Virus record (IMG/VR): IMGVR_UViG_3300044613_003806
Coordinates: 1 to 33,021 of that record
Length of the DNA: 33,021 nt
Source: a virus
Strand: one strand, 5' to 3'
Shown here: in pieces, positions 3-8,831 of the stretch
Numbering within the stretch: the stretch's first letter is position 1
Layout of the letters: each line of letters opens with the position of its first letter
The notes under the pieces: generated by a model
Seen by the model: the letters and a program-made list of their open reading frames with translations, nothing else
What the model was told of the DNA's origin: nothing
The model's database searches: none
Made by a program: the position numbers and the translations under genes

Positions 3-599
3 GAACATTTTTATTGTTTATTAAGAAAAGAACATCTTTATCAAAACAAACTATATCACGGTGAGTATGAAAAGATAGCAATTTTTGGAGCGCAGTCTTC
101 TTCAGGAAAAGCATTGTTGTTTACTGGCATGCTGGATAATGGAACCGTAAGAAGTAGAATACCTATTCACATGCTTTGTTCCAAAGAATGCCAAAAACAA
201 GAATTAGATTTATTACAACTCTGGGATTGTTTTTCCGAAAATGCCACAGTTACAATTTATAATTTTTTAAAAGGTGCTAGAGCAAAAGTAATATTTAAAG
301 ATAAAACGCATTGTTGGGGAAATTATATGATGACATTTGACTGGTATGATAACCCATACAGCAATGAACCAACACAGTATAAATGTCTGCATATGATTCA
401 ACTTGACAATGGAAATTTTACCCTTCAACCAAATAATAGAATTTTTTGGAAAGAAATGTCTTTTACTACAAAACAATTTCCCGAAAATCCAGATTATAAA
501 GTTGATAATAAAATTTATAGATGTGAAGATAAAAGTGATAGATGGATTTTGACTGGTGATGATGATCACTATTACTACGATATAGAACAAGATAAATAA
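3..599 (+). CDS. Conserved T4-like marine phage protein, 5' end outside window
   Basis: The open frame runs from the first bases of the window (phase begins at base 3) without a stop to 599, so the true start lies upstream; the first in-window starts are internal. The visible part is about 198 residues, rich in aromatic and acidic residues, and includes IAIFGAQSSSGKALLF, SRIPIHMLC, LQLWDCFS, a KDKTHCWGNYMMTFDWY stretch, QPNNRIFWK and a C-terminal DDDHYYYDI. From memory this matches a hypothetical protein conserved in marine T4-like phages (cyanophage type); no biochemical role is known to me and no catalytic motif is evident. It lies directly upstream of the tmRNA gene, and its stop codon is embedded in a GATAAATA late-promoter-like motif. 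I am confident it is coding and do not know its function. Confidence 0.85.
   Translation, partial: EHFYCLLRKEHLYQNKLYHGEYEKIAIFGAQSSSGKALLFTGMLDNGTVRSRIPIHMLCSKECQKQELDLLQLWDCFSENATVTIYNFLKGARAKVIFKDKTHCWGNYMMTFDWYDNPYSNEPTQYKCLHMIQLDNGNFTLQPNNRIFWKEMSFTTKQFPENPDYKVDNKIYRCEDKSDRWILTGDDDHYYYDIEQDK
591..598 (+). promoter_or_regulatory. T4-type late promoter-like motif before the tmRNA
   Basis: GATAAATA fits the NATAAATA form of the T4-like late -10 element. It overlaps the stop codon of the preceding gene, so chance or codon constraint can also explain it. A start about 6 bases downstream (near 604) would place the 5' end of the transcript just before the tmRNA acceptor piece. Confidence 0.4.
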
Positions 600-663
600 A
601 TTTGGTATTGTTGATATTGGATAGAAATACGGCAACACAGGGGTTCGATTCCCCTCGGCTCCA

Positions 664-761
664 TTAGCCTAACCGAAGGATACTGCAATTCCTTAGAGAT
701 GGCGATCCAAGTCCTCGTAGCAGCGGGGCACGATCTGAAGTCCTAGGCTTCAGATCATTTA
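664..761 (+). other. Intervening segment of the permuted tmRNA precursor
   Basis: These 98 bases separate the acceptor piece from the coding piece and would be removed by processing, as in known permuted tmRNA precursors. The segment contains a perfect nine-pair hairpin, GATCTGAAG (732-740) with CTTCAGATC (748-756) and a seven-base loop, ending five bases before the mature 5' end of the coding piece. It has no credible reading frame. Confidence 0.75.
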
Positions 762-896
762 GGGGCTGAAATGGCTTCGACTGTCGTAAAGTATTGAAGA
801 AGGAGATACCCGTTACTGGCAACGAGGAACGTGAAACAACAGTTGCAAATTTAATTGCCAACGAATTGGCAATGGCTGCTTAAAGCAGTGGGGTTT

Positions 897-931
897 GCTG
901 GTCTTCCCGCATCTGAAAGACCAGCGTTTTT
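897..931 (+). terminator. Rho-independent terminator of the tmRNA
   Basis: A perfect nine-pair stem, GCTGGTCTT (897-905) with AAGACCAGC (917-925), has an 11-base loop and is followed by GTTTTT. The loop begins CCC (906-908), which could pair with GGG within 890-893 to form an H-type pseudoknot, so the element may double as a tmRNA pseudoknot. Confidence 0.85.
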
Positions 932-933
932 AT

Positions 934-961
934 TTGACTATTGGAAATGCCGATATATACT
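934..961 (+). promoter_or_regulatory. Sigma70-type early promoter
   Basis: TTGACT (934-939), a 16-base spacer and TATACT (956-961), beginning just after the tmRNA terminator. Only six bases separate the -10 box from the ATG at 968, so the predicted start of transcription falls at or next to the start codon. Similar boxes with the same spacer recur before other early genes in this window. Confidence 0.75.
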
Positions 962-967
962 CTATGC

Positions 968-1141
968 ATGCCTAATTCAAAGCAACGTATTACTAGTCGT
1001 AAACACAAGAAGCGCAAGGGGCATATTGCTCGCAAGCGCGCCTCCTCTTTGATGGAGGCAAAAGTTGCCACTCTCCGTAAGCTTGACGAGATTGGTCAAC
1101 TTCCTTTATCTGTCAAGCAAGCGAGATTGCCAAATGGCTAA
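968..1141 (+). CDS. Small basic hypothetical protein
   Basis: A 57-residue, strongly basic protein with a Lys/Arg/His-rich N-terminal half (TSRKHKKRKGHIARKRASS) followed by a predicted helical segment (LMEAKVATLRKLDEIG). I do not recognise the family; the basic head suggests nucleic-acid or ribosome binding, which is inference. The ATG at 968 is chosen because an early promoter (934-961) sits immediately upstream and no Shine-Dalgarno sequence precedes it, consistent with a leaderless message. In-frame starts further upstream (from 941) would lie inside the promoter. Its last eight bases overlap the next gene, so the two are probably translationally coupled. The strong early promoter fits a host-takeover role. 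Confidence 0.6.
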   Translation: MPNSKQRITSRKHKKRKGHIARKRASSLMEAKVATLRKLDEIGQLPLSVKQARLPNG

Positions 1142-4584: not shown

Positions 4585-6459
4585 TTATTTAGTTCTAATT
4601 TTTATCAACCCATATAGATCTGGGTTATATGTGGATTCATTTAAATTTTTAAGAGCTTCTTGGGAAATTTCTTCGGAAACTTTTTTCCACTTACCACCTT
4701 TGCTCTTATAGCACTTAGCTGCCCAAGCATTGGCATATGCTGAATTTCCAGTAATTGTTATAAATCCATTTTGAATCATGACCCAAGTATTATTTTCTGT
4801 TTCTGGGCACCAAACATCCTCTGCTTCTACTTCTTTAATTTGTAAATTTTGAGTATTGTGAGTTGGTTTATTTCGAATTATTGATGCCGACTGCATTTCT
4901 GGATATTTATCAGCATACGTTACATGATAGCCGTTTAAAAAAGCTGCTAAAATTGTTGCATAAAAATGATCTTCATTTTTTTGACTAAATCCAAAAGAAT
5001 GCCGATTTAAAATTTTTGTACTGATTCCCTTATCATGACCATCATAAACAATAGCACTAGCTAAAAATATTTCACGTTGATCTTTAGTCATTGTTAATAC
5101 TTTTTCTACCCAAGAATCTTTTTTAGACCAATTTTCTAAAACTAAAGGAGTTTCATTATTTAATACTCCACAAACAATAATTTGCATGTGTTTATTAATA
5201 TCTTTAGTTTCAATTAAATTTGTGTATTGGTAATTTTCTCCACTTTTTACAACCCATTTGTGATTTGGAGTACATTTTACTTGAAAGCCAGTAGATTTTC
5301 CAATTTGAAAAAGCGGAGCATTTTTAAAATTATGAATATTTAAAACAGGTTTCCATTCTAATTCTTCTTTGGTTATATTGTAAGTTAAAATTTCCTGACC
5401 AATTTTTAATTGCTCATGAGAAATAGGACCTTCTTTTGTTATTGCTAAGGAATCAAGAGGAACACAGGGATATACATCAAATTTAGCTTTTGCTTGAGCA
5501 AGACATGCAGACCATTTTTTAGAATTCTTTGGTTTATTCTTAGAATCTTCAGTCATCAATTCAAATTCTTCTTTTAACATGGCACTTACTGGCTTTGCAC
5601 TCCAAGTCTTGCAAGCCCAGTAACGAGCCTTCCAGCGAGGACCTGGATTATCACAATTATGTCTGGCTCTAAAATTACGTCTTCTAGCTGGATCATCGCG
5701 CTTGATTTCCATATTTGGATCGCCAAAGTTTACTTTAACAACATTTCCCTTATCATTTTTTACATAAACTTTGTATTTTTTGACATCACCACGCATGATC
5801 TTGTTTAATTTTACTTTTTTGTTGTCATCTTCATAGATATCGATTAGATCACCATATTCATTCATTTCATCACCTTCAGTAACATCAACAAATCCCATAG
5901 TTACCTCTGGTGTAAAGTTTTCTGTAATTACATCACCCTCTTCATTTGTAAATGTTACAGTATATTTGTCTTCGTTAATTTCTACCATATCTACATTTAA
6001 TATTTCGCCAGATTCATTAATAACAACATCACAAGGAAGTAAATCTTTGGCTTCGATTGTTGAGAATGGTAGTTCTTTTATTACGCTTAAACTTTCAACT
6101 ATAAAATATTCAAAGGTTTCTTTAACTTCTGTTACTCCAGTTTTTACGTATACAGGTTTTTTGCCAGAACCTTTTACAGAACCTTTTTTTCCTCTTCCGG
6201 CTTTCTTTTGAGCAGCCCTTTTACGTCTAACAAAACTTGCAATCTTTTCTTTTCCAAGTTTTTGTGCTTTTTGTTTGCTTAGACAAGCAGAATAAGGATC
6301 ACCCTCATCGGCATCACCACACTTACCAACTCTTTCACCTTTGGTATTGTATCTATCCCAACCTGGGCCACCACCAGCAGATTCTTTATTGAACCATTTG
6401 CCTAAGCCAGATTTGGCATATACTTTTTCTAATAAAATATCAAACTTAGAGTTTATCAT
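4585..6459 (-). CDS. Modular putative virion protein interrupted by an intein
   Basis: 624 residues from ATG 6459, which overlaps the upstream stop (ATGA) and has AAGGA nine bases before it; the in-frame TTG at 6465 is less likely. The N terminus MINSKFDILLE resembles a capsid-targeting peptide ending in an LLE site. Extein modules: GGGPGWDRY with Cys and a Lys/Arg-rich tail (about 29-98), a beta-rich acidic domain (about 118-210), a module ending RARHNCDNPGP and ARYWACKTW (264-286), and SACLAQAKAKFDVYP (317-331) continuing after the intein as SAYANAWAAK. These small modules recur in T4-like phage virion proteins from memory. Residues 332-572 form an intein; splicing would leave a 383-residue protein. 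Biochemical role unknown. Confidence 0.8.
   Translation of the reverse strand: MINSKFDILLEKVYAKSGLGKWFNKESAGGGPGWDRYNTKGERVGKCGDADEGDPYSACLSKQKAQKLGKEKIASFVRRKRAAQKKAGRGKKGSVKGSGKKPVYVKTGVTEVKETFEYFIVESLSVIKELPFSTIEAKDLLPCDVVINESGEILNVDMVEINEDKYTVTFTNEEGDVITENFTPEVTMGFVDVTEGDEMNEYGDLIDIYEDDNKKVKLNKIMRGDVKKYKVYVKNDKGNVVKVNFGDPNMEIKRDDPARRRNFRARHNCDNPGPRWKARYWACKTWSAKPVSAMLKEEFELMTEDSKNKPKNSKKWSACLAQAKAKFDVYPCVPLDSLAITKEGPISHEQLKIGQEILTYNITKEELEWKPVLNIHNFKNAPLFQIGKSTGFQVKCTPNHKWVVKSGENYQYTNLIETKDINKHMQIIVCGVLNNETPLVLENWSKKDSWVEKVLTMTKDQREIFLASAIVYDGHDKGISTKILNRHSFGFSQKNEDHFYATILAAFLNGYHVTYADKYPEMQSASIIRNKPTHNTQNLQIKEVEAEDVWCPETENNTWVMIQNGFITITGNSAYANAWAAKCYKSKGGKWKKVSEEISQEALKNLNESTYNPDLYGLIKIRTK
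4744..5466 (-). other. Intein with degenerate LAGLIDADG-like motif
   Basis: Inferred intein of 241 residues (332-572 of the host protein). It begins with the nucleophile Cys332 (CVPLDSLAI, block A), has TPNH at 397-400 (block B), and ends with VWCPETENNTWV (block F) and NGFITITGN (block G), followed by Ser573 as +1 nucleophile. The penultimate residue is Gly, not the usual His, a variant I recall from phage inteins of this WCPxT type. The central region holds FLASAIVYDG (465-474), which looks like one decayed LAGLIDADG helix, plus SQKNEDH. Its insertion splits a conserved FDVYP/SAYANAW motif. Homing activity is doubtful with only one poor motif. Confidence 0.88.
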
Positions 6460-8831
6460 TTCCAATCCTTGTTTTGCTTCTCGCCTTTTTTATGTCCGTT
6501 GTCAGATCTATTTTCCGACCTATCACGGACACGTAAATTATTTAGTCCTTTTGAGCCACCATTTCTTAATGGAACTTTATGATCAATATCTTTTCCATCG
6601 CCTTTCTTGACTCGGCCTTTTTTGATCAATTGTTCTCTGGCTTTTGTTCTGGCAGCTCTTTCTTTTCTTTGTTTTGGTTTACCGTGATAATTGCGGTATT
6701 CCATTTTATAATCTCGTTTGTATTCTTCTATAACCAAATCAGCAAATAGCAACTCGGCCAACTCTGGGTATTCGGTCATTCTGTTTTTTGCATTTTCAAA
6801 AATAGAACGAAGATTAATCATAAATGGTTCAACATCTTCGGTCAACATATTATTAGACGATAAAATTATTTCAGCTTCGCTATCCGTTAATAATTGATTT
6901 TTTAGTAATAGAGAAAGAACAAAATTATTAGACAAAGATTCAAGCAATAAATCATTTAAAATTAAAATGCTTTCACCCAAAACAGCGTTTGTAACATTTT
7001 CTCCCTTCACAACAGGAATTTTTACTGTTTTTTTTCCTATTGTTACATAATTATATTGTACGGCATTCAAATCTTTGGTATTAAATCCTGGAAGTAAGCT
7101 AGCATTTAACAGGAAGTCATTGCTTCTTACCATATAATCGACCATCATTTGAATTGGATTTAATTTTTCTTTGCTTACGAGCATACTTTCAATAGATGGT
7201 TTTTTAGTTTCTTTTGCTTCAATTATTGTAGAAAAACTTTTCAACATTTCTGCTGCTGAAGGTTTATAGTTAGTAATATTGGAAGAAGAAATTACATCTT
7301 TTGATGGCTTGACATCTAAATCAGAATTTTTAGATACACTTGCAAAATAATCATCACTCATTGGAAAAATTCCATTAATGGTGATTAAATGATTTGGTGC
7401 ACGCTCTGGGTCTGTGATTCCATCACCACGCAATACTGTTTTTAATAAATTATCTATAACAGCAGCTTTGAATGCGTTTTTACCAGTTCCACCCTTCATT
7501 ATTTCTTTACTTGCTGATTGCCAAGACTTTTGATAATTTTGTAAAGAAGCTTGGGGATTTAGATTTCCAGTTTCATCTAAAATTGTACCAACTGGCTTTC
7601 CTTGAGCATCTTTTATTTGGGTGTTTTGAAGTTTTGCAACTAGTTTGGCGTCTTTCTGTATTTCAGATAAAAGTTCTTCTGGGATCAAAAGATCGCTGAA
7701 TCCTTTTTGCATAATATCCATATTTTGCATCAATGATTCTAGTTTTTTATCTTGAGAAATTAATTGAGGATTCAACAATGATTGTGTCAATGCTCTGGCC
7801 ACAAAGCCTCTAAAGTTTTTATTTGTTTGATCGAATTGGTTTGTAGAAAAAGAAATTTCACCACTGGCAGCTACTTTAAATTTGTAGTTACCACATTCCA
7901 TATCTGCATTTCCTTCAGCTACAACGGGTTTTCCACCACTCTCAACATTTGTTAATAAAGTTTGCAAACATTGTTCACCAATTTGCGAGAGAATCTTTTT
8001 GGCTGTAAAAAATGCAGATCTTGTAAAGTCTTTTGCGTCTGGAGCCAAGGCCAAGTAAGTTTGTAATTCTTGGTCGCTTGCACCGGCTTTTAATTTTGCT
8101 AAGAAAACTAGCGCGTTCAAAACTTGTTGATTGTACGGAGAATTGCTTATATTGCTTATTCCAAATTCTACAGACATATTTTCATATGACAATTTATCGA
8201 AGTCTGCATTTGGCTGCGGTGTTCTTGACATTCTAAAATATTCTGCACGCAGCTCTGGAGGCATACCAGCAAGTTGTTCGGGGGTCATTTGTGTCATGAC
8301 TTCGAACATTTGCTCTTTGCTCATCTTTTTAGCTTTAGTTTTTTCTGATTTTTCTTTTTCCTCTTCAGATTTTGGGCGAGCTGCTTCTCTAGTTTCCTTT
8401 TCGTCTTTTGTTTCGGCTTTTTTTCCTTTTTCCTTATCTTCTTTTTGTTTTACGTCACCAAACAATAATTTTGAAGCTCTTGTCTGCTCAAAACTTTGTT
8501 CTTTGGTGGCCCTCTGTGCCTCCTCAATACTGAGAACATCCTTGTTTAATTTTGTGTGGGCAGATGGGTTAAAAGAATCTTTAAAAATTAATTGTATGCC
8601 ACCACTTCTAGTTTTTACCAAAATTACATCTTTGATAAGTTCTTGCTTTGGTTTTCTTTCTCTAGGAAGTTCTTTGGCACGCTCTGCACGTTTACGTGCA
8701 GCATCCCTAGCTTTTGCATCGGATGTAGAAGCCTTTGCACGCTCTTTCTTTTCTGCTCCTCCAACTTGTTCGGGAGCTTCGTTTAAAGGTTTTTGTTCAA
8801 CAATACGGCTTAAAAGTGTTTTAAAGTTCAT
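6456..8831 (-). CDS. Large putative internal protein with C-terminal HNH module
   Basis: 791 residues from ATG 8831; an in-frame TTG lies six bases earlier, and GGAG directly abuts the ATG, so the start is not certain. The N terminus MNFKTLLSRIVEQKPLNE resembles its neighbours and offers IVE and LNE protease sites. Residues about 20-75 and 130-175 are Lys/Glu/Ala-rich coiled coil. A long helical middle follows. The end carries YHGKPKQRKERAARTKARE, KKGDGKDIDHKVPLRNGG and LRVRDRSENRS (748-776), an HNH-like module found in many phage virion-associated proteins as I remember. It may bind or nick DNA during packaging or ejection; this is inference. Its stop overlaps the start of the intein-bearing gene. 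Confidence 0.75.
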   Translation of the reverse strand: MNFKTLLSRIVEQKPLNEAPEQVGGAEKKERAKASTSDAKARDAARKRAERAKELPRERKPKQELIKDVILVKTRSGGIQLIFKDSFNPSAHTKLNKDVLSIEEAQRATKEQSFEQTRASKLLFGDVKQKEDKEKGKKAETKDEKETREAARPKSEEEKEKSEKTKAKKMSKEQMFEVMTQMTPEQLAGMPPELRAEYFRMSRTPQPNADFDKLSYENMSVEFGISNISNSPYNQQVLNALVFLAKLKAGASDQELQTYLALAPDAKDFTRSAFFTAKKILSQIGEQCLQTLLTNVESGGKPVVAEGNADMECGNYKFKVAASGEISFSTNQFDQTNKNFRGFVARALTQSLLNPQLISQDKKLESLMQNMDIMQKGFSDLLIPEELLSEIQKDAKLVAKLQNTQIKDAQGKPVGTILDETGNLNPQASLQNYQKSWQSASKEIMKGGTGKNAFKAAVIDNLLKTVLRGDGITDPERAPNHLITINGIFPMSDDYFASVSKNSDLDVKPSKDVISSSNITNYKPSAAEMLKSFSTIIEAKETKKPSIESMLVSKEKLNPIQMMVDYMVRSNDFLLNASLLPGFNTKDLNAVQYNYVTIGKKTVKIPVVKGENVTNAVLGESILILNDLLLESLSNNFVLSLLLKNQLLTDSEAEIILSSNNMLTEDVEPFMINLRSIFENAKNRMTEYPELAELLFADLVIEEYKRDYKMEYRNYHGKPKQRKERAARTKAREQLIKKGRVKKGDGKDIDHKVPLRNGGSKGLNNLRVRDRSENRSDNGHKKGEKQNKDWK

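Follow-up and report, generated by a model that had tools for sequence, protein, structure and literature searches.

A permuted tmRNA gene in a T4-like phage

The window (the whole stretch of DNA analysed) is a linear virus record of 33,021 bases, and its (+) strand carries at 604–932 what is very probably a working, circularly permuted, two-piece tmRNA gene of a T4-like phage; this level of confidence covers the tmRNA reading alone, not the role of the structured RNA, here called IVS-A, that lies between its halves. Judged by its gene content, the contig belongs to an uncultured T4-like phage: its proteins matched a T4-type DNA polymerase, primase, DnaB helicase, UvsX, ribonucleotide reductase and thymidylate synthase, together with a RuvC-like resolvase, a dUTPase and tail and virion families. 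The nearest DNA polymerases among isolates were those of Synechococcus myophages (~43% identity), with that of phage Melnitz at 38%. Elsewhere in the window, a 626-aa protein (4585–6465, (−) strand) gave a weak match to an intein-splicing domain (Pfam PF14890, below cut-off).

An earlier note on this DNA had proposed a phage-encoded circularly permuted tmRNA, to be checked with models of permuted tmRNAs. Consistently with this proposal, Rfam model RF04321 (tmRNA_permuted) matched 604–883 (+) with 77.5 bits, above its gathering threshold of 47 (E = 2e-13 over the window), and ARAGORN, independently of Rfam, placed a permuted tmRNA at 574–974. The beta_tmRNA model (RF01850) aligned to 540–932 with 53.1 bits, under its cut-off of 84, and the alpha_tmRNA model (RF01849) gave no window match above gathering, so that neither the beta nor the alphaproteobacterial subtype is assigned.

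The gene has the permuted layout, with the acceptor/T-arm half 5′ of the coding half and the two joined through the acceptor stem and helix P2 (all features on the (+) strand). The acceptor piece (604–663, from the Rfam alignment and covariation) includes the T-arm (639–655) and ends in the discriminator A663, CCA not being encoded. With the mRNA-like coding piece (762–932, from Rfam alignments and covariation) it forms a seven-pair acceptor stem (656–662/762–768), in which G764–U660 corresponds to G3–U70, and the two-part P2 (604–608/806–810 and 628–634/782–788), whose 5′ strands lie in the acceptor piece; the D-loop GGCTTCGAC occupies 773–781. These seven pairs, the D-loop signature and the inter-piece helix had all been recognised in the earlier note and were recovered here. 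Further 3′ lie pseudoknot 1 (811–816/826–831 and 819–823/842–846), the P5 hairpin (876–888) with the stop codon 881–883 in its loop, and pseudoknot 2 (889–892/906–909 with 897–905/917–925), followed by T5 up to 931; as in permuted tmRNAs generally, an open tag frame thus has its stop in P5 and a pseudoknot on either side. Just 3′ of the gene, a sigma-70-like promoter (934–961, TTGACT-16-TATACT) precedes a small basic ORF of 57 aa (968–1141) without family match, and many relatives have a similar motif 3′ of their tmRNA gene.

Conservation of the tmRNA fold in phage relatives

Related contigs were gathered by a polymerase search and a neighbour-gene search (91 records); RF04321 matched above cut-off in 18 of them, and many of the others were short fragments. 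A pattern derived from pseudoknot 1 raised the set to ~75 distinct loci (~70 distinct relatives in viral contigs), most of the records being fragments. In the first set a 22-mer was invariant partly for a circular reason, since the loci had been fetched by that very pattern, and the comparison was redone with the Rfam-found relatives and the pseudoknot 1 pattern. Two other phage contigs carried permuted tmRNAs of the beta (L004, 132 bits) and alpha (L005, 74 bits) subtypes.

Across 37 distinct phage relatives, 94.7% of the cells of the tmRNA fold were paired (36–44% in slid controls), and two-sided changes affected 24 of 55 pairs, against a shuffle mean of 9.1 (0 of 500 shuffles as high) and 3–8 in slid controls. 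The two helices of pseudoknot 1 had 97.7% and 100% of cells paired, with compensatory changes in the first and GUUGC (842–846) facing GCAAC (819–823) in 37/37 for the second; P5 was paired in 100% of cells, with one two-sided change. The AlaRS identity pair G3–U70 was kept in the window and in 71 of 71 distinct loci, while the stem around it occurred as GGGGCUG, GGGGUCG, GGGCCCG, GGGUCCG or GGGACCG. An acceptor stem that varies around a constant G3–U70 matches the prediction for a functional, alanine-charged tmRNA.

Two other origins for the gene have to be set against these data. Phages integrate into ssrA and fragments of ssrA occur in prophages (discussed in PMC9004378), so that the locus might be a piece of host ssrA acquired by a prophage as an attachment-site remnant; however, the gene is complete, the same fold recurs in ~70 distinct viral contigs, and the T4-like gene set is that of a virulent phage, the proteins searched giving no PHROG match to an integrase, which leaves this origin with next to no probability. 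We also regard as highly improbable a decoy or inhibitor tmRNA, which would occupy SmpB or stalled ribosomes and disable host trans-translation, as reported in E. coli for the inhibition of host tmRNA by the TLD-only tmRNA of phage DS6A (PMC4131195; PMC11915505): a decoy would need no tag, whereas compensatory changes across the relatives have preserved the tag frame with its stop codon, the two pseudoknots and the AlaRS identity pair.

The encoded tag

The Rfam alignments and ARAGORN agreed in placing the resume codon at GCC 857–859, which gives the tag frame ANELAMAA followed by TAA (857–883 (+)). From this GCC, exactly eight codons precede the stop at every locus (74/74 distinct loci), with the consensus A-[NAE]-x-[LM]-[AR]-[MIVR]-A-A. 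The context UAAUU|GCC AAC resembles the permuted-tmRNA consensus of the Rfam alignments; relative to the resume codon, position −4 is A in 57 loci and G in 17, and position −3 is A in 74/74. In E. coli the frame ruler is position −4, A86 (PMC2481249).

The earlier note had rightly placed the stop in the P5 hairpin and had begun the frame too early, at GCA 845, to give the 12-aa tag ANLIANELAMAA. We rejected this start. At 33 of 74 distinct loci the GCA of 845–847 is 13 nt away from the tag and hence not in its frame; the triplet also overlaps pseudoknot 1 in its 3′ strand (842–846), and six loci have C at position −4 as counted from it, where in most assays a C inactivates the tmRNA of E. coli. 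On this comparison of loci, the tag is ANELAMAA and not ANLIANELAMAA. The first half of the tag (857–870) can also form a hairpin with a covarying pair that overlaps the resume codon, seen in many AN-type tags as GCCAA/UUGGC or GCUAA/UUAGC and, in another register, as CCGCA/UGCGG.

Possible expression signals

A T4 late promoter sits 11–12 nt before the 5′ end of its transcript. In the window, a T4-type late-promoter-like motif, GATAAATA (591–598 (+)), ends 6 nt 5′ of the acceptor piece, and among 56 distinct upstream regions TA[AC]ATA stood at −11 or −12 of the tmRNA 5′ end in 30 (25 and 5, respectively), the background frequency per position being 0.0011. A homologue of the late sigma factor gp55 was present in six of six large relatives. 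In 23 of the 56 loci there was no late-promoter motif near the gene, and most of these genes lie directly 3′ of a tRNA-like 3′ end. The motif suggests late expression of the phage tmRNA in this lineage, whereas early expression has been suggested for the Melnitz tmRNA (PMC9004378).

The gene may also end on a signal of its own. The earlier note had proposed a dedicated terminator, and the pseudoknot 2 stem (897–925) followed by T5 makes this plausible; a simple terminator scan, however, did not flag it. SmpB was found in none of 16 phage records, so the SmpB of the host is assumed to serve the phage tmRNA.

A folded RNA between the two halves

The segment between the two pieces (664–761 (+), 98 nt), which is presumed to be excised, contains a structured RNA that the earlier note had missed. 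By covariation and folding, this RNA, IVS-A, comprises a closing helix (GCC 667–669/GGC 701–703, with CG changed to GC in L109 and L167) that encloses hairpin 1 (674–679/691–696), a hairpin 2 (711–729) and an optional hairpin 3 (732–756), which is missing from 7 of 40 aligned sequences. The loops of the first two hairpins, CUGC (683–686) and GCAG (720–723), would pair as kissing loops; they are complementary in 40/40 sequences, and in L101, L165 and L176 have changed jointly from CUGC/GCAG to CUGU/ACAG. Over 40 distinct sequences 96.2% of cells were paired (35–48% in slid controls), two-sided changes were found in 15 of 28 pairs (6.4 in shuffles), and 664–761 folded alone with z = −2.9. Judged from these alignments, IVS-A is a folded RNA under selection. 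We rejected the idea that it is conserved above the mature RNA, to which it is slightly inferior in mean identity (0.79 vs 0.82 and 0.86 for the two pieces).

IVS-A was present in all 18 tmRNAs that Rfam detected in the contigs of the polymerase and neighbour-gene relatives, and in pattern scans its exact pattern turned up, among viral contigs, only inside tmRNA genes. Pattern matches in two bacterial genomes (L161, L162) came without a tmRNA and are attributed to chance, and a general mobile RNA was discarded as an explanation, the loose-pattern matches outside tmRNAs being without hairpin 2. A search of window positions 450–1100 at E ≤ 1 matched no Rfam family to IVS-A; a glutamine riboswitch (RF01739) in the intervening segment was rejected on the same search, and no known type of self-cleaving ribozyme matched at this threshold. 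Neither IVS-A nor the tRNA-like RNA described below was found in isolate phages.

Different contents of the slot

At other loci the slot contains either a spacer of 5–13 nt or a second RNA, here called B, of ~112–123 nt (165–173 nt in some). In L163, L175, L177, L188 and others, the intervening segment of the permuted tmRNA is just 5–6 nt long. RNA B is built from an acceptor stem, a hairpin resembling a D-arm, two more arms that carry the conserved GCGUAAAAC..GACAAAGC, and a T-arm, the last being the only part recognised by the Rfam tRNA model; 97.6% of its cells were paired, with 94 two-sided cells against 31. It occurs within tmRNA intervening segments or standalone in phage tRNA clusters (examples are L125:5716–5829, L227:298–410 (−) and L184:3544–3657, among others), and standalone copies beside tRNA-Tyr were found in phages that have IVS-A in their tmRNA. 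In L234 the slot holds B and then a genuine tRNA-Pro(TGG) at 655–729 (−). In L228 (113–232 (−)), B is accompanied by an acceptor-like half on a contig without Rfam tmRNA match, an arrangement that suggests retention of B without a tmRNA; the contig of L231, retrieved with the same pattern, likewise had no Rfam tmRNA match.

The tag AAPMRMAA was found with IVS-A, with B and with short spacers of 5–6 nt, which indicates that the slot and the coding half change independently. Since phages with a 5–6 nt spacer keep their tmRNA, IVS-A is not generally required for maturation, and because these short-spacer tmRNAs dispense with it, it may be either a passenger or an element that serves maturation. 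We give an even chance to the reading in which phage permuted tmRNA genes use the slot for a second functional RNA that can be exchanged, IVS-A being an undescribed kissing-loop class that is either co-released with the tmRNA or controls its maturation, and being replaced in related phages by an undescribed tRNA-like RNA without recognisable anticodon arm.

Two narrower accounts of the segment draw on the same observations. It might be a neutral docking slot, in which a second RNA gene is nested without effect on the tmRNA; the three states found with one AAPMRMAA tag, the standalone copies of B in tRNA clusters, the tRNA-Pro added in L234 and the tRNA-Ala reported inside one other permuted tmRNA (PMC11915505) all fit this account, which we hold to be a real, if somewhat doubtful, possibility, given that the pattern scans never found IVS-A outside the slot. 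Alternatively, the segment could be a switch that senses a ligand or condition and decides whether the precursor matures, as its compact, covarying fold with a loop–loop contact, enclosed in the acceptor stem, might suggest, and as the presence of a tmRNA and a glutamine aptamer at one locus in Melnitz (PMC9004378) might support. The Melnitz aptamer, however, lies downstream of the tmRNA, outside the intervening segment, and a switch would here be read from one fold that matches no Rfam family, so that we consider it unlikely.

Proposed maturation and function

In the reading that we favour, that of a functional two-piece tmRNA, transcription would start at ~604 from the phage late promoter, and the precursor would fold with its acceptor stem closed around the intervening 98 nt. 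Cleavage at 761/762 might then fall to host RNase P, and that near 663 to RNase Z or a different endonuclease; maturation by RNase P and RNase Z has been proposed for permuted tmRNAs (PMC3985003). IVS-A would most likely help or gate this step, and its release as an RNA of ~98 nt is conceivable. After addition of CCA, AlaRS would charge the G3–U70 stem with alanine, and, as in known tmRNAs, the two pieces, held by P2 and acting with host SmpB, would free ribosomes from broken messages, adding ANELAMAA as a protease-type tag. We infer that in late infection the gene serves to rescue ribosomes, together with the SmpB of the host; the earlier note had suggested rescue or a retagging of proteins as possible functions.

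Relation to known tmRNAs

Permuted phage tmRNAs are an already known kind (PMC9004378). The view in the earlier note that such a gene is unusual has to be tempered, because 53 of 133 unique phage tmRNAs, 50 of them from marine or aquatic phages and Melnitz included, were reported as two-piece in 2022 (PMC9004378). Like the window phage, the Methylophilales phage Melnitz (PMC9004378) is a T4-like virus with a phage-encoded permuted gene that matches RF04321 (113 bits for Melnitz). Melnitz fits alpha_tmRNA (106.7 bits), whereas the window stays below the cut-off of that model and has a weak fit to beta_tmRNA; the two intervening segments also differ, and in Melnitz a glutamine riboswitch lies downstream of the tmRNA.

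With bacterial permuted tmRNAs (RF04321, RF01849, RF01850, RF01851) the gene shares its order, P2, the two pseudoknots around the tag, G3–U70 and a precursor with an intervening sequence; unlike them, it has an 8-aa tag and a conserved structured intervening RNA. The standard tmRNAs of mycobacteriophages and Bacillus phage G, and the TLD-only tmRNA of DS6A, are likewise phage-borne ssrA genes, but the former are not permuted, and that of DS6A has no tag. A tRNA-Ala in the intervening sequence of one permuted tmRNA was called unique in 2025 (PMC11915505). That gene is similar in nesting a second structured RNA in the excised segment; its nested RNA, reported for this one nominally archaeal gene, is a standard tRNA, whereas here IVS-A is a non-tRNA fold conserved at ~50 loci, and B of other phages is a non-standard, tRNA-like RNA.

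What looks new is that the excised stretch between the halves has a conserved RNA fold of its own; the literature searched, in which older work was partly covered, held no description of such a conserved structured intervening RNA or of its tRNA-like replacement. The analysis adds a lineage of ~70 distinct two-piece tmRNAs of phages that appear to be functional, which together with the corrected tag and the late-expression motif makes phage-controlled ribosome rescue testable. If the excised spacer is indeed a conserved folded RNA, one gene would yield two RNAs, or the maturation of a rescue RNA would be regulated. The loci with 5–6 nt spacers provide natural controls.
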